Shown here: positions 9,234-21,075 of the stretch, in pieces
Layout of the letters: every line of letters begins with the position of its first letter
Position numbering within the stretch: position 1 is the first letter of the stretch
Source: Microbispora sp. H11081
GTDB lineage: Bacteria > Actinomycetota > Actinomycetes > Streptosporangiales > Streptosporangiaceae
Direction: 5' to 3'
Assembly (NCBI RefSeq): GCF_012999535.1
Contig: NZ_JABBWV010000014.1
Coordinates: forward strand, 1 to 64,000
DNA length: 64,000 nt
Made by a program: the position numbers and the translations under genes
The notes under the pieces: model-generated
What the model saw: only the letters and a program-made list of their open reading frames with translations
What the model was told of the DNA's origin: nothing
The model's database searches: none

Positions 9234-9239
9234 TAGCCT
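9234..9239 (+). promoter_or_regulatory. Candidate -10 element for the histidine kinase operon
   Basis: TAGCCT ends six bases before the GTG at 9246, with no Shine-Dalgarno sequence between. The spacing suggests leaderless transcription starting at or beside the GTG. Confidence 0.35.
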
Positions 9240-9245
9240 CGTGCC

Positions 9246-10400
9246 GTGAACGTTCGGGAGTGGCGGGCCGGGATCGCGGCCGACGCGGCGTTCGGCGTCG
9301 TGGCGGCGGCCGTGCTCGCGTTCTGGGCCTCCCTGATCGCGGACAGCTGGGGCGGCGGCTACTGGCGGTTCGGCTGCGCGGCGGGCGCCGTCGTCTGCGT
9401 CGCCGCCCTCGCACGGAGGCTCGACCGCACGTGGGCGGCCGTCGCCGGCCTGGCCGTCGCTGCGACCGCCGTCCTGGCCTCCCGGTTCGCCGAACTGCCG
9501 AGCGAGCCGGGCCCCGGCATGGCCCTTGGCCTGTCGGTGCTGGTCGGCTCGGCGGTGCGGGCGCTGCCCGTGCGCGCCGCCGGCGCCGTGGCGGGCGGCG
9601 GCCTCGCCGTGGCGGTGGGCAGCGTGCTGTCCGCGAACACGCTCACCGCCGGGGTGCCCTCCGTCACCGTGCTGAACGTGGCCGCCTGGCTCGCGGGCGT
9701 CGCGGCGGGGCTGGTGCCCCGGCTGCTGGACTCCCGTCGCCGGGCCGCCGCCGAGGCCGTACGCCGCGCCGAACGGCTGGCGCTCGCCCGCGAGTTGCAC
9801 GACGTCGTCGCGCACCACGTCACCGGCATCGTGGTGCAGGCCCAGGCCGCCAGGATCGTGGCGGGCAGGAGCCCCGAGAAGGTGGGCGGCGCCCTTGCCG
9901 ACATCGAGGCCGCCGGCTCCGAGGCGCTGGCCGCGATGCGCCGCGTCGTCGGCCTGCTGCGCGATCCCGCCGCTCCCGCCGCTCCGACCGCTCCCACCGG
10001 GCCCGCAGGGCTGGGCGAGCTGGTCGAACGCTTCACGGCCGACGGCCGCGCCGTACGCGTGCGACTGCCGGGAGAGGACGAGACCGCCGCGTGGCCGCCC
10101 GAGGTGGCGGGCACGGTCTACCGGGTGGTGCAGGAGTCTCTGACGAACATCGCGCGCCACGCCCCGCACGCCCGCTCGGTCACGGTCAGCGTGGAGCGCG
10201 AAGGCGACGCCGTCACCGTCGAGGTCGCCGACGACTCCCCGAGGATGCCCGCGCGGCACCACCAGCGCGGCGGCTACGGCCTTCTCGGGATGCGTGAGCG
10301 GATCGAGGCGCTCGGCGGCACGCTGCGCGCCGGGCCGCGCCCCGGACGCGGCTGGTCGGTCCTCGCCACCCTGCCCGTCCCGGGGAACGACCGCCGATGA
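9246..10400 (+). CDS. Two-component sensor histidine kinase (HisKA_3/NarL type)
   Basis: 384 residues. The first ~160 form several membrane segments with short loops, so the sensor lies in the membrane. The dimerisation/phosphoacceptor helix is at about residues 175-240, with the H-box ELHDVVAHHVTGIVVQA (first His after the Glu-Leu pair is the phosphoacceptor). The HATPase domain follows with an N-box QESLTNIARHA and a G-box GGYGLLGMRERIEAL. It overlaps the response-regulator gene by ATGA, a normal coupled pair. In comparable Streptomyces pairs the signal is often cell-envelope stress or unknown. Confidence 0.92.
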   Translation: MNVREWRAGIAADAAFGVVAAAVLAFWASLIADSWGGGYWRFGCAAGAVVCVAALARRLDRTWAAVAGLAVAATAVLASRFAELPSEPGPGMALGLSVLVGSAVRALPVRAAGAVAGGGLAVAVGSVLSANTLTAGVPSVTVLNVAAWLAGVAAGLVPRLLDSRRRAAAEAVRRAERLALARELHDVVAHHVTGIVVQAQAARIVAGRSPEKVGGALADIEAAGSEALAAMRRVVGLLRDPAAPAAPTAPTGPAGLGELVERFTADGRAVRVRLPGEDETAAWPPEVAGTVYRVVQESLTNIARHAPHARSVTVSVEREGDAVTVEVADDSPRMPARHHQRGGYGLLGMRERIEALGGTLRAGPRPGRGWSVLATLPVPGNDRR

Positions 10401-15870: not shown

Positions 15871-18144
15871 TCACGCGTGGTCGCGGGCCGCGGCGACGGC
15901 GGCCTGGCCCAGGCTGACGCCGCCGTCGTTCGGGGGGACGCGGTGGTGGGTGAGCACCGTGAAACCGCGCTCCTCCAGCAGGGTCACGGCCCGACCGAGC
16001 AGCAGCAGGTTCTGGAACACGCCGCCGGACAACGCGACCGTGGACAGGCCGCGGGCCTCCCTGATCAGGGCGCAGCCGTCGGCGACGACGCGGGCCACGG
16101 CGTTATGGAAGCGCGCGGCGACGACGTCACGCGGCACACCGGCCCTCAGGTCGTCGGCGACCGCGCGGACCAGTGCCGCGCCCGGCACGGTGAACCGCGT
16201 GCCCGCGAGATCGAGGCCGCAGGCGTACGCGTCGTCCACGGCGGGGTCGGCCAGTTGCTCGAACTCGACGGCCGCCTGGCCCTCATAGGTGATCGCGTCG
16301 CGGACGCCCGCGACCGCCGCCACCGCGTCGAACAGACGGCCCATGCTGGAGGTGGGAGGCGCGTTCCCGCCCCGGCGGGCCAGCGCGACGACGGCCGCCC
16401 ACTGCCCGGCGTTGCGCCGTACGACGTCCAGGTCCTCCGGGACGTCACCTTCGTAGGCGAGATCGAGATAGGCCGCCGCCATGCGCCAGGGCTGCCGGAT
16501 CGCGGTCACGCCGCCGGGCATCGGCACCGGGACGAGGTGGCCCGCGCGCTCGAACCCGGCCAGGCCGGCCACGAGGAACTCGCCGCCCCACAGGGTGCCG
16601 TCCAGGCCGTACCCGAGGCCGTCGAAGGCCACCCCCGCGACCGGCCCCGCCACCCCGTTGTCGGCCAGGCACGACGCGACGTGGGCGTGGTGGTGCTGCA
16701 CGCCGACGAGGTCCGCGTCCTGGTCGAGGGCCCACTTCGTGGACAGGTATTCGGGGTGCAGGTCGTGCGCGACCACCCCCGGCGTGATGTCGAACAGCCG
16801 CCTGAAGTGCTCCACCCCCTCCGTGAACGACCTCAGGGTCTCGTAGTTCCCCAGGTCGCCGATGTGGTGGGAGACGAACGCGCGGTCCTCCTTGACCAGG
16901 CAGAACGTGTGCTTCAGCTCGGCGCCGCAGGCGAGCACGGGCCGGGGGGCCGCCCTGGCGAGCGCCAGCGGACGCGGCACGTATCCCCGCGACCGCCTGA
17001 TCGGCAGGTCGCGGCCCCGGAAGACCCGTACGACCGAGTCGTCCGTGCGGACGTGGATCGGGCGGTCGTGGGTGAGGAAGGCGTCGGCGATGCCACCGAG
17101 CCGTTCCAGGGCGTCCTCGTCGCGGTAGGCGATCGGCTCGTCCGACACGTTGCCGCTGGTCAGCACGATGGGCCGGCCCAGCTCCCGGAGCAGCAGGTGG
17201 TGCAGCGGGGTGTAGGGCAGCAGCACCCCCAGCCACCGGTTGCCCGGCGCGACTGACGGCGCGACGGGCGCGTCCGGCAGCCGCCGCAGCAGCACGACGG
17301 GACGGGCGGGCCCGGTCAGCAGGCGCTCCTCCGCCGGGTCCACCTCGCACAGCCGCCGCGCCTCGTCCAGGTCGCCCGCCATCACCGCGAACGGTTTGTC
17401 CTCGCGGTGCTTGCGCGCCCGCAGCGCCGCCACGGCGGGCTCGTGCGCGGCGAGCGCCGCCAGGTGGTAGCCGCCGAGCCCCTTGACCGCCAGCACCCCG
17501 CCCGCCCGCAGCAGCCGTACGGCCCGCCGCAGCGGGTCGCCTGTTCCCGGGGGACCGGTGCCACCGGGACCGGTGAACCCCAGCCGGGGCCCGCAGGCGG
17601 CGCAGCACACGGGCTGGGCGTGGAAGCGCCGGTCGGCGGGGTCGTGGTACTCCCCGGCGCAGTCCGCGCACATCAGGAAGCCGGCCATCGTCGTGTTCGC
17701 CCGGTCGTACGGCACGTCACGGACGATGGTGAAGCGCGGCCCGCAGTCCGTGCAGTTGGTGAAGGCGTAGCCGTGCCTGCGGTCGGCGGGGTCGGTCACC
17801 TCGCGCAGGCAGGCGTCACAGGTCGCCACGTCCGGCGAGACGAGCGCGCGACGGCCCTCCCCGGCCGCGCTCGGCGCGATCACGAAGGTCCTGCGGCCGG
17901 TGACCGGCGCCGGGCCCGTGCTGATCCGTTCGATCGTCGCCAGCGGGGGCGGGTCGCCGGCCAGCGCGGCGAGGAACTCCTCGACCGGTGCGCCGCCGCC
18001 CTCGACCACGATGAAGACCCCGCGCTCGTCGTTGCCGACGATCCCGGCGAGACCGAGTCGCGTGGCGAGGCCGTGCACGTAGGGCCGGAAGCCGACCCCC
18101 TGCACGACGCCCTCGACCCGGACGGCGACGGCACGCCTGCTCAC
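15871..18144 (-). CDS. hypF: Carbamoyltransferase HypF
   Basis: 757 residues with the complete domain order: N-terminal acylphosphatase (VRVEGVVQGVGFRPYVHGLA, residues ~8-90), two zinc-finger-like Cys motifs (CDACL...CTDCG and CADC...CAACG, ~110-190), a YrdC-like carbamoyl-adenylate domain (~210-400) and a Kae1-like C-terminal domain with HHHAHVASCLADNG. It converts carbamoyl phosphate and ATP to a carbamoyl group for the HypE cysteine. It is transcribed from the strand opposite to hypA-E, convergent with hypE, and starts just downstream of the STAS operon, which reads in the same direction. Confidence 0.96.
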   Translation of the reverse strand: MSRRAVAVRVEGVVQGVGFRPYVHGLATRLGLAGIVGNDERGVFIVVEGGGAPVEEFLAALAGDPPPLATIERISTGPAPVTGRRTFVIAPSAAGEGRRALVSPDVATCDACLREVTDPADRRHGYAFTNCTDCGPRFTIVRDVPYDRANTTMAGFLMCADCAGEYHDPADRRFHAQPVCCAACGPRLGFTGPGGTGPPGTGDPLRRAVRLLRAGGVLAVKGLGGYHLAALAAHEPAVAALRARKHREDKPFAVMAGDLDEARRLCEVDPAEERLLTGPARPVVLLRRLPDAPVAPSVAPGNRWLGVLLPYTPLHHLLLRELGRPIVLTSGNVSDEPIAYRDEDALERLGGIADAFLTHDRPIHVRTDDSVVRVFRGRDLPIRRSRGYVPRPLALARAAPRPVLACGAELKHTFCLVKEDRAFVSHHIGDLGNYETLRSFTEGVEHFRRLFDITPGVVAHDLHPEYLSTKWALDQDADLVGVQHHHAHVASCLADNGVAGPVAGVAFDGLGYGLDGTLWGGEFLVAGLAGFERAGHLVPVPMPGGVTAIRQPWRMAAAYLDLAYEGDVPEDLDVVRRNAGQWAAVVALARRGGNAPPTSSMGRLFDAVAAVAGVRDAITYEGQAAVEFEQLADPAVDDAYACGLDLAGTRFTVPGAALVRAVADDLRAGVPRDVVAARFHNAVARVVADGCALIREARGLSTVALSGGVFQNLLLLGRAVTLLEERGFTVLTHHRVPPNDGGVSLGQAAVAAARDHA

Positions 18145-18156
18145 CAGGCCATTGTC

Positions 18157-18486
18157 TCAGCGAGGCAGGTCGAGGACGTCGTCGAGGGCGATGACTTCGA
18201 GCAGGTGACGCAGGTAGGGGGTGACCGCGGTGATCCGGAAGGCGACCCCGCGTTCCCCCGCCCCCGTGTAGGCGTTCATCAGTACGGCCATGCCGGAGGA
18301 GTCGACGAACTCCAGCCCGGACAGGTCGAGTTCGAGCAGGCGCAGGTCCTCGGCGAGCGCCTTCGCGACGGCGGCGGACGCCTCGTCCACCATGCTGTAA
18401 TCGAGCTCACCGATCATCACCAGGCGTACCGCGCCGGGCTCAGGGACGAGCGCCTCAACCTGAAAAGGGGGCGTGTCCTGCATCAA
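18157..18486 (-). CDS. STAS-domain anti-sigma factor antagonist
   Basis: 109 residues, a single STAS domain. The phosphorylatable Ser lies in the conserved loop FVDSSGMAVLM (about residue 67), as in SpoIIAA/RsbV. The domain docks on an anti-sigma kinase when dephosphorylated and releases the sigma factor. It is the last gene of a three-gene operon; its start overlaps the cobalamin-protein gene by 32 bases. No anti-sigma kinase or sigma gene is adjacent, so the partner is elsewhere. Confidence 0.9.
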   Translation of the reverse strand: MMQDTPPFQVEALVPEPGAVRLVMIGELDYSMVDEASAAVAKALAEDLRLLELDLSGLEFVDSSGMAVLMNAYTGAGERGVAFRITAVTPYLRHLLEVIALDDVLDLPR

Positions 18487-19507
18487 AAGCTCGTCTCTGT
18501 TGTCGAGCCGCGCTGCACATCTGTGCCGCGGCGACGCCCTCGCTCAGCAGTGCCTGGGCGCGAGGGCAGTCATTCAGTACATCACGGAAAACGCTCAGCG
18601 CGAGCACCACGAATTCCGCGGGCACCTTCCTGGCCAGCAGCACGCCGCAGGTCCAGGTGACGTAATCGGTGAACAGCGAAGCGTCGTGGACGTACATGGC
18701 CGCGATCAGGTAGTCGGCGATATAACCGAGATCATCGTCGTGGCCGCCCTCCGGGGTGTGCGCCTCCTTAAGCGTGGCCGCGACGCGGGACACCAACTCG
18801 GCCCGGTGCCGGGTCAGGTACACGTACTCCTCGCCGCCCACGCGGGCAGCGCCCTCACGAGCGGAGGGAAAGGACGGCAGCCCGGAGGCGAGCCGGTCGG
18901 CCGCCGCGTCGGCGGTGGGCGCCCACGCGTCCGCGCCGAGCAGGCGGGCGTAGCGGCCGTCGGCGCCGAACCCGGCCCCACCGGCCAGCACGGGCACGCC
19001 CACGGCCTGGCAGGCCGCGATGAGGGCGTGGGCGCGGGGCAGCCGGGTCGCGAGTGTGCAGCCGAGCGCGACCACGTCGGGACCCTCCCGGTGCAGGTAC
19101 GTGATCAGCTGCGGGCCCGGCACGCTCGCGCCGAGGAAGTCGGCGTGCCATCCCCGCAGGCGCAGCACCTCCGTCACGATGTGGGCGGGCAGCGCGTGAT
19201 ACTCGCCGTCGGCGCAGGCGACGACCACCCTGCCGCGGGACGGCGCGGGACGGACGTGGGCGCCGACGGCGGCCACCGCCCGCTCGCTGACCTTGGTGGC
19301 GCCGTGCTCGCGCGCCACCGGCCACTCGTCCGACTCCCACAGCTCGCCCACCCTGCGCTGGCTCGTCGCGATGACCCTCAGCAGCACGTCCTCGGCGGGG
19401 ACGCCCTCGTCGAGCAGGCTCACGACCAGGCCGACCGCGCCCTCCTCGTCGGCCCGGCCGATCAGCTCCAGGTAGCGCCGGGCGGCGGCCGGCAGGTCCG
19501 GAATCAT
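18455..19507 (-). CDS. Cobalamin-binding photoreceptor-like regulator in a partner-switching operon
   Basis: 350 residues from ATG 19507, which overlaps the phosphatase stop as ATGA. Residues ~1-85 form the four-helix cap of cobalamin photoreceptors, with an exact W-x9-E-H signature (Trp57, Glu67, His68). Residues ~93-215 form a B12-binding Rossmann domain with EYHALP (His104 at the position of the lower axial His; Asp and Gly of the common DxHxxG replaced by Glu and Pro) and VLAGGAGFG. The remaining ~130 residues are helical, resembling accessory domains of stressosome or RsbR-type proteins, not DNA-binding. In CarH-type proteins the same cap and His chemistry senses light through adenosylcobalamin. 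Here no DNA-binding domain is present, so output probably goes to the STAS/phosphatase neighbours. Confidence 0.8.
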   Translation of the reverse strand: MIPDLPAAARRYLELIGRADEEGAVGLVVSLLDEGVPAEDVLLRVIATSQRRVGELWESDEWPVAREHGATKVSERAVAAVGAHVRPAPSRGRVVVACADGEYHALPAHIVTEVLRLRGWHADFLGASVPGPQLITYLHREGPDVVALGCTLATRLPRAHALIAACQAVGVPVLAGGAGFGADGRYARLLGADAWAPTADAAADRLASGLPSFPSAREGAARVGGEEYVYLTRHRAELVSRVAATLKEAHTPEGGHDDDLGYIADYLIAAMYVHDASLFTDYVTWTCGVLLARKVPAEFVVLALSVFRDVLNDCPRAQALLSEGVAAAQMCSAARQQRRAFDAGHAPFSG

Positions 19508-21075
19508 CGCGACGCCCCTCTCCCCGCCCGTACGGCGAGCAGCGCGCGGTCGTCCTGCTGCCCGCCCCGCAACCAGTCGGTGCTGAGCTGCTCCAGCCGC
19601 TCCACCAGCGCGTCCACCGGCATGACCGCGCAACTCGCCAGCGCCCGCCTCAGCCGCTCCTCGCCGAACATCTCCCGGCCGCTCGGGCCGCCGAACGCCT
19701 CGGTGATCCCGTCGCTGTACAGCAGGCACGTCTCGCCGGGCGCCAGGTCGACGGTGGCGGGCCACAGGCTGATCTTCTGCAGCGCGCCGAGGAGCGAACC
19801 TCTGACCGCGACCTCCTCGACCGTGCCGTCCCGGCGCAGGACCAGCGGCGGCGGGTGCCCGGCGACGGCCAGGTCCACCTGCACGTGGCCGCCGGGGGCG
19901 GTCCGCAGCGCCGCGAGGATCAGCGTGACGTACGAGTGCGGCGACGGGGACGCGAGCAGCGACCGGTTGAGCAGTTCGAGCAGCCGCTCGGGCCTGCTCT
20001 CCATCAGCAGCAGCGTGCGCAGGCTGTGGCGGACCTGACCGGCCAGGACCGCCGCGCGGGCGCCCTTGCCGCAGACGTCGCCCAGGATCACCAGCGGAGG
20101 CCGCTCCACCGGCCCGCTCTCGGGCAGGTAGACGTCGTAGAAGTCGCCGCCGATGGCGCCCGCCTGCTGCGAGGCCCGCAGCCGGCCGGCCAGCCGCATG
20201 CCCTCGATCTCGGGCAGGTCGGGCGGCAGCAGGTCACCGGTCAGTATGCCGTTGACCGTGCTCTGGTCACGGAACAGGCAGGCCGCCGAGATCGCGGCGC
20301 CGGCCCGGGTCGCGAGGTCGTACGCCATCCCCTGGTCATCCTCGTCGAACGACGGCCGCCCGGCGCGGCGGGCGAGCACGAGCGCCCCCGCCGACACGCT
20401 GTTACCGGGCAGCGGGAGCACCAGCAGGTGGCCGACCGGGCCGAACCCCTCAGGCAGGAGCCAGTCCGGTGTGCCGCCCGGGTCCTGCCGTCCCGCGACG
20501 TCCTCCCGCAGGCCGGCGAGCGCGTCGGTCAGGCCGGGCACCTCCGCCGCCGCGGCGGCGGGCACGGCGCCCTCGTCCGGGCCGGACCTGCCCGGCACGA
20601 CGCGGATCCACTCGATCCGGCGGCCGGAGGCAGGCGGCAGGAAGACGACCGCCGCGTCGCACAGGAATCGGGTGCCCAGCTCCGCCGCGGCCCTGGCGCA
20701 CCGGTGCGGGTTGAGCGACGCCGCCAGGCGGCGCGCGGCCTCCAGCAGGAACTCGGTGCGCCGGGACGTCTCCGCCGTCAGATACCAGGCGATCCGGCCT
20801 TCGCCCAGCTCCTCCGCGCGGACCTGGATCTGCCTGCCGTCGTGGGTCACGACCCGGGCCTCGGGGGCGGACAGCACGGAGTCGAGCGGGGCGGGCAGGG
20901 GCAGGCCCGGCTCAAGTCGTGGCGCCAGGCGGACCGCCGCCGGGTTGGCCAGCGTCACGACACCGTCGGCGTCGCACACCACGACGCCCTCACGGCTGTG
21001 TTCGAGCAGCGCCGCCATGAGGCCGGGAGATACGGCCCTGTGGCACGGGTCCGCGGAGCCCGTGGCCCACTTCAC
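19504..21075 (-). CDS. PAS-GAF-SpoIIE (PP2C) phosphatase
   Basis: 523 residues. An N-terminal PAS domain covers ~18-110 (EGVVVCDADGVVTLANPAAV), a GAF-type domain ~115-290, and a SpoIIE/PP2C phosphatase ~300-515 with metal-binding Asp residues in LVILGDVCGKGARAAVL and LLYSDGITEAFGG. Such enzymes dephosphorylate STAS antagonists and so release sigma factors. It heads the operon with the cobalamin protein and the STAS protein, overlapping the former by four bases, which makes the STAS protein its likely substrate. The sensory input of PAS and GAF is not predictable. Confidence 0.92.
   Translation of the reverse strand: MKWATGSADPCHRAVSPGLMAALLEHSREGVVVCDADGVVTLANPAAVRLAPRLEPGLPLPAPLDSVLSAPEARVVTHDGRQIQVRAEELGEGRIAWYLTAETSRRTEFLLEAARRLAASLNPHRCARAAAELGTRFLCDAAVVFLPPASGRRIEWIRVVPGRSGPDEGAVPAAAAAEVPGLTDALAGLREDVAGRQDPGGTPDWLLPEGFGPVGHLLVLPLPGNSVSAGALVLARRAGRPSFDEDDQGMAYDLATRAGAAISAACLFRDQSTVNGILTGDLLPPDLPEIEGMRLAGRLRASQQAGAIGGDFYDVYLPESGPVERPPLVILGDVCGKGARAAVLAGQVRHSLRTLLLMESRPERLLELLNRSLLASPSPHSYVTLILAALRTAPGGHVQVDLAVAGHPPPLVLRRDGTVEEVAVRGSLLGALQKISLWPATVDLAPGETCLLYSDGITEAFGGPSGREMFGEERLRRALASCAVMPVDALVERLEQLSTDWLRGGQQDDRALLAVRAGRGASR

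Follow-up and report, generated by a model that had tools for sequence, protein, structure and literature searches.

A B12-binding protein encoded between a phosphatase and an antagonist of the partner-switching kind raises the question of which signal such a protein receives and to which of its neighbours it passes that signal. This arrangement is found in the 64,000 nucleotides of Microbispora sp. H11081 analysed here (the window; positions 1 to 64,000 of contig NZ_JABBWV010000014.1), where the genes for a SpoIIE-type PP2C phosphatase (19504..21075, 523 amino acids, assigned by Pfam and motif patterns), a B12-binding protein (18455..19507, 350 amino acids) and a STAS-domain antagonist (18157..18483, about 108 amino acids, with a DSSG motif) lie head to tail on the minus strand and overlap. 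Gene order, coordinates and strand agree with a first-pass annotation of the same DNA, made from its letters alone. We consider it probable that the operon feeds a light signal into a partner-switching pathway through the middle protein, a predicted photocobilin, by the steps set out below. The operon is genuine and conserved; its predicted light-sensing function places it in a recently named family and not in a new kind.

The middle protein

The B12-binding protein is predicted to be a photocobilin, one of a family of light sensors that hold B12 and can also bind a bile pigment; it would consist of a four-helix cap, a B12-binding domain and a photoglobin (bilin) domain. The profile search that the first-pass annotation had proposed returned the Pfam domains B12-binding (5.3e-16) and, for the cap, B12-binding_2 (7.4e-12). 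Among solved structures the best match was SasPcob, with chain 8j2x at E 8.5e-85 over residues 5-326 and a second structure, 8j2w, at 9.5e-85 over residues 6-326; AbPcob (8j2y) came next at 1.3e-41, and CarH chains were far behind, at 1.7e-6 and weaker. The annotation had noted the helical C-terminal part and missed its likely identity as a bilin-binding photoglobin domain, and with it the photocobilin family. The homology of photoglobins to the globin domain of RsbR was used in a PNAS 2023 paper (PMC10151467).

In SasPcob, Trp61, Glu71-His72 and His108 hold adenosylcobalamin (AdoCbl), whereas Asp270 and Trp296 are in contact with biliverdin (PMC10979010). All have equivalents in the window protein, on the minus strand: Trp57 (codon 19337..19339) for Trp61, which stacks on the adenosyl group; Glu67-His68 (19304..19309) for the pair that forms a network across the dimer interface (PMC10979010); His104 (19196..19198) for His108, and hence the predicted lower axial ligand of cobalt; Asp259 (18731..18733) for Asp270; and Trp285 (18653..18655) for Trp296, which lies near ring D of the bilin. 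Both W57-x9-E67-H68 and E102-Y-H104-A-L-P107 are present, and the four B12 residues that the annotation named are exact in the translation. Trp57, Glu67, His68 and His104 are kept in 154, 155, 155 and 154 of 155 aligned sequences, L082 failing at both the Trp and His104; the alignment is partly redundant, with strains present under two entries, and leaves out eight loci added late (one of its rows, gen_L196, repeats the first copy of its locus and is not a tandem copy).

Cobalamin binding had been questioned on the ground that the motif reads ExHxxP where DxHxxG is expected; the doubt over the motif is now resolved. Glu occupies the position of E102 in 152 of the 155 sequences and Asp in 3, Pro that of P107 in 146, and SasPcob, an AdoCbl binder, carries EWHALP, of the same pattern. 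ExHxxP is normal for the photocobilin family.

SasPcob of Saccharothrix syringae (8J2W, 8J2X) resembles the window protein in domain order, in the W-x9-EH and ExH motifs and in the biliverdin Asp and Trp. The window protein differs by lacking 8 residues before the biliverdin Asp and by another C-terminal tail, and its genome has no match to the heme oxygenase family PF01126. With the photocobilin-diguanylate cyclase AbDPcob (8J2Y for its photocobilin part), in which bilin binding is reduced (PMC10979010), it shares the photocobilin core; the output domain of AbDPcob is fused, in contrast to the separate phosphatase here, and the biliverdin Asp is a His in AbDPcob and an Asp in the window protein. 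The CarH/LitR repressors share the cap, the B12 domain and the key residues, but the window protein has a photoglobin domain and no MerR DNA-binding domain.

A CarH-type repressor was accordingly rejected as a candidate: Pfam finds only the two B12 domains and no N-terminal MerR domain, and the NCBIfam CarH model scores 43.1 bits against a cut-off of 400. The annotation's view of the middle protein as an AdoCbl photoreceptor module of the CarH type that lacks a DNA-binding domain stands, as a prediction. Viral carriage was also rejected, as none of 22 pattern matches in viral contigs was a relative. Elsewhere in the host genome a MerR-like protein with a B12-like domain (L009, C49:79581-79901) shows, by eye, an EH pair and an ExH-like stretch but no evident cap Trp, and is possibly a LitR-like regulator.

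Pairing with a SpoIIE phosphatase

We surveyed the gene neighbourhood in two sets of loci, which overlap and are not additive. A search of 394 genomes of the class gave, among the matches listed and at about E 1e-26 or stronger, 69 loci: the window, 60 stretches and eight later loci, of which one (L210) is a full-length match and the others are partial or weaker. The named set holds the best 80 of at least 551 relatives (at least 595 stretches), picked by likeness to 18 sequences. STAS and HATPase neighbours were found with custom profiles, which a diverged STAS could escape.

Immediately upstream of the photocobilin gene, and on its strand, a phosphatase gene is found in 59 of the 69 class-sample loci (54/61 and 5/8, counting L213, where both are truncated) and in all 80 of the best named loci, which include Streptomyces, Micromonospora and one Mycobacterium. 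In 55 of the 80 the two genes overlap by 4 bases, counted from the start codon closest to the phosphatase stop. Because the pairing is so frequent, standalone photocobilins most likely act on the SpoIIE phosphatase with which they are paired. A STAS gene follows directly downstream in 33/69 (31/61 and 2/8) and 44/80 loci, so that of the triplet that the first-pass annotation had proposed to look for, the phosphatase is strongly conserved and the STAS gene less so. An anti-sigma-like HATPase profile match lies within about 4 kb in 18 of the 69 loci and within 3.5 kb in 16 of the 80, and in ten loci (L068, L072, L073, L078, L083, L097, L098, L158, L171, L174) the order STAS-HATPase-PP2C-photocobilin runs along one strand. 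A fusion of phosphatase and photocobilin in one reading frame was found in none of 141 loci, a count without the eight late additions.

The idea that light acts through partner switching, raised by the first-pass annotation, appears sound and has already been proposed for a relative. For SasPcob a STRING network pointed to possible interaction with STAS, SpoIIE and PP2C proteins, a genome-neighbourhood analysis is described in the methods of the same paper, and the function of standalone photocobilins was there called less clear (PMC10979010, 2024). The neighbourhood counts may therefore be known in part. In the available parts of the literature on photocobilins, photoglobins and SpoIIE/STAS/B12-binding proteins we found no experimental test of the photocobilin-phosphatase pairing. 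What seems fresh is how tightly the two genes are paired and that in Microbispora the bilin domain has been shortened repeatedly.

A proposed pathway from light to a sigma factor

The phosphatase matches SpoIIE at 2.1e-38 and carries the motifs GGDFYD, GDVCGKG, SDGITEA and DDRAL; its N-terminal PAS and GAF matches are weak and below the Pfam cut-offs. The STAS protein matches STAS_2 at 9.6e-17 with an intact DSSG motif, whose serine we take to be the phospho-acceptor, motif roles being assigned after SpoIIE and SpoIIAA/RsbV. The annotation was thus right to link the middle protein to a phosphatase and an antagonist of the partner-switching kind. Across the loci, strict patterns find GGDF.D in 110, GDV.GKG in 119 and SDG..EA in 85 of 134 phosphatases, and DSSG, DSTG or DSTA in 51 of 75 STAS proteins; L067 has DSMG.

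In Bacillus subtilis the PP2C phosphatases of the RsbQ-RsbP and RsbT-RsbU systems feed a STAS antagonist. In these systems a separate partner protein controls the phosphatase, as we propose for the window operon. The partner here differs in being a B12 photoreceptor, and the likeness is one of working mode.

The B12 of photocobilins is converted by green light, and by red light when biliverdin is also bound; in vitro a standalone photocobilin acts in trans on an enzyme domain supplied separately, and light changes the effect (PMC10979010). By comparison with SasPcob and AbDPcob, AdoCbl would be held in the dark between Trp57, Glu67-His68 and His104 in a head-to-tail dimer, and green light would break the Co-C bond and change the shape of the photocobilin. 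In one of its states the photocobilin would contact the N-terminal PAS-GAF part of the co-translated phosphatase and set its activity, a contact that we infer from the near-constant gene pairing and from the published control of a separate enzyme domain in trans. As their families suggest, the phosphatase would dephosphorylate the STAS protein at the DSSG serine, and STAS in that form would lead an unlinked anti-sigma kinase of the HATPase type to give up its sigma factor. In this way light probably controls a programme of stress response or of development. HATPase_c_2 is matched 72 times in the host genome, probably in many cases by histidine kinases, and the SigBFG model 13 times; the two SigBFG matches above cut-off (on C1 and C15) each have an HATPase_c_2 match close by, and none of the 13 is near the operon. 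A SigB-type promoter (G..T-N14-17-GGGTA[CT]) was absent from the roughly 190 bases upstream of the phosphatase gene in the window and in 10 relatives.

Several observations weigh against this proposal. There is no anti-sigma HATPase kinase in or near the operon, the only HATPase-profile match in the window (9237-10397) being a HisKA_3 histidine kinase. Ten of the 69 loci have no phosphatase upstream (7/61, of which L087 begins at a contig end, and 3/8); these are among the lowest-scoring photocobilins. No STAS match lies directly downstream, by the custom profile, in 36/69 and 36/80 loci, and in M. siamensis (L100, 7071-7121) only a short piece of the STAS 3' end is left between the photocobilin gene and hypF, with the phosphatase and photocobilin frames open; the frequent absence of STAS and its deletion in M. 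siamensis suggest that STAS need not be the only target. Lastly, the ratio of nonsynonymous to synonymous substitution (dN/dS, a rough Nei-Gojobori estimate on GC-rich genes) for the photocobilin gene of the window against that of M. catharanthi (L099) is 0.77, and the protein may be losing function.

Shortening of the bilin domain in Microbispora

Compared with M. catharanthi and other relatives, the window gene has an in-frame deletion of 24 bases, or 8 residues, just before Asp259 (minus strand, approximate junction 18734..18739). Asp259 and Trp285 still align with the biliverdin contacts of SasPcob despite this loss. A full-length photocobilin is present in 12 of 15 Microbispora genomes (of the three without, one is only 92% complete), and in 6 of the 12, 8, 11 or 14 residues are missing just before the bilin Asp. 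Counted by alignment rows, which are partly redundant, 9 of 24 from Microbispora are short there by at least 5 residues, against 1 of 114 other Asp-bearing rows and 4 of 17 rows without the Asp. In a FastTree phylogeny the window branch groups with one intact and one 14-residue-deleted sequence (support 0.97), and no other Microbispora row has a deletion of 8 residues; because of this grouping and this length, the window deletion probably arose on its own.

Could the photocobilin of the host species be a decaying relic with little function? We think this unlikely. The lost residues, a changed tail, a long branch and the high dN/dS against M. catharanthi would fit decay, as would the three genomes of the genus without a full-length copy, the deletions in half of the others and the copies elsewhere, next to a phosphatase gene, that are truncated or broken in frame (L211, L213, L216). 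For the same pair of species dN/dS is 0.45 for the phosphatase, 0.46 for STAS, 0.23 for HypF and 0.25 for TauE. However, the reading frame is open and the core B12 residues are all kept, and the photocobilin ratio falls to 0.48 against M. hainanensis (L102); between two other Microbispora (L099 and L103) it is 0.78. Relaxed constraint on the globin part was not seen, dN/dS being 0.465 in Microbispora, 0.463 in the rest of the Streptosporangiaceae and 0.227 in Herbidospora; the B12 part gave 0.364, 0.333 and 0.134.

Two photocobilin genes stand in tandem in three genomes of the genus (G016, G161, G402), and tandem pairs lie between phosphatase and STAS in L042 (G016), L043 (G161), L101 and L124. 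In the second copy, which has about 57-59% identity to the window protein, both the bilin Asp and the complete segment are retained. In M. hainanensis the C-terminal tail of the photocobilin is extended by four 12-base tandem units (L102, 6982-7028).

In this genus, then, the bilin arm may be decaying with the B12 residues intact, and such decay could alter or invert the output. With a shortened bilin arm and no match to the heme oxygenase family PF01126 in the host genome, the window sensor probably relies mainly or entirely on B12. Nor does this family have a match in any of the 15 Microbispora genomes, other heme-degrading enzymes not having been searched for. It is present in 11 of 12 other Streptosporangiaceae genomes with a full-length photocobilin match in the class-wide search. 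That the Microbispora photocobilin changed from a sensor with two chromophores, B12 and biliverdin, to a B12-only one as the segment before the Asp was lost repeatedly, once the PF01126 heme oxygenase had gone, is an idea that we hold tentatively and regard as doubtful.

A strong PF01126 match, a term that excludes 11 of 159 matching genomes with E above 1e-9, occurs in 29 of 57 surveyed photocobilin genomes and in 119 of 337 others (Fisher p 0.027); when seven further photocobilin genomes are moved over, the counts become 31/64 and 117/330 (p 0.066), neither value being corrected for kinship. The enzyme is thus a weak general correlate of photocobilins. Strong matches are found in 26 of 47 genomes with the bilin Asp and in 3 of 10 without it (p 0.18) and, together with the weak class-wide association, this indicates that absence of the PF01126 enzyme alone does not predict loss of the bilin site. 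Among the 21 Asp-bearing genomes without a strong match, 6 are Microbispora and 6 belong to one other family (f4); the f4 genomes (L055, L057, L058, L063, L065, L066) keep both the Asp and the full segment. They count against a simple story of heme oxygenase loss, as do the weak association and dN/dS values without a clear sign.

Alternative signals and targets

It is quite improbable, in our judgement, that the middle protein reports the supply of AdoCbl and not light. The activity of AbDPcob does differ in the dark between its AdoCbl-bound and apo forms (PMC10979010), and the host genome contains an adenosyltransferase family gene (Cob_adeno_trans, PF01923), which also favours the proposed light pathway. 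Yet the Trp and Glu-His of CarH-type light sensors are nearly invariant in the alignment, and photoconversion has been demonstrated for two relatives (PMC10979010).

Direct action of the photocobilin on STAS, in place of the phosphatase, seems very unlikely. The STAS gene overlaps the photocobilin gene in the window and is downstream in about half of the loci of each set, but pairing with the phosphatase is commoner, the STAS gene is the one mostly deleted in M. siamensis, and none of 21 Actinoplanes, Paractinoplanes and Amorphoplanes loci has a STAS match within 3.5 kb (at least one of them, L117, is near a contig end). A chance operon without functional link, of which hypF may be an accidental member, is extremely improbable, since the pairing recurs in many genera and families and the 22 SpoIIE matches in the 7.4 Mb of the host genome make a chance SpoIIE neighbour rare.

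Overlaps and flanking genes

Phosphatase and photocobilin genes share the stop/start overlap ATGA (19504..19507, minus strand), the 4 bases that the first-pass annotation reported. Its 32-base overlap of photocobilin and STAS would require a TTG start at 18486; we take the ATG at 18483, which aligns with an ATG in L099, L102 and L103, and the overlap of the photocobilin 3' end with the STAS 5' end is then 29 bases (18455..18483, minus strand). In those three relatives the photocobilin gene stops directly at the STAS ATG (TGATG). The window gene shows a one-base gap near its 3' end in the alignment, after which the frame continues into a different short tail, a local variation.

Twelve bases past STAS begins hypF, for hydrogenase maturation (15871..18144, minus strand), whose co-transcription with the operon is possible; the same gene lies 3' of the operon in L099, L100, L102, L103 and L124, all of them Microbispora loci. 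Upstream of the operon is a divergent gene of the TauE family.

Significance

For standalone photocobilins of many actinobacteria the gene-pair counts suggest a concrete candidate partner, a SpoIIE phosphatase whose N-terminal part resembles PAS and GAF domains. The deletion alleles of Microbispora form a natural series for what the bilin adds. If the reading of the Microbispora protein as B12-only is true, colour sensing would be narrowed to green, and light could come to control the SpoIIE phosphatase with the opposite sign, because the effect of light on the partner enzyme of SasPcob is opposite with and without biliverdin (PMC10979010). If the proposed pathway is true, light, read by vitamin B12, would be a direct input into sigma-factor control.

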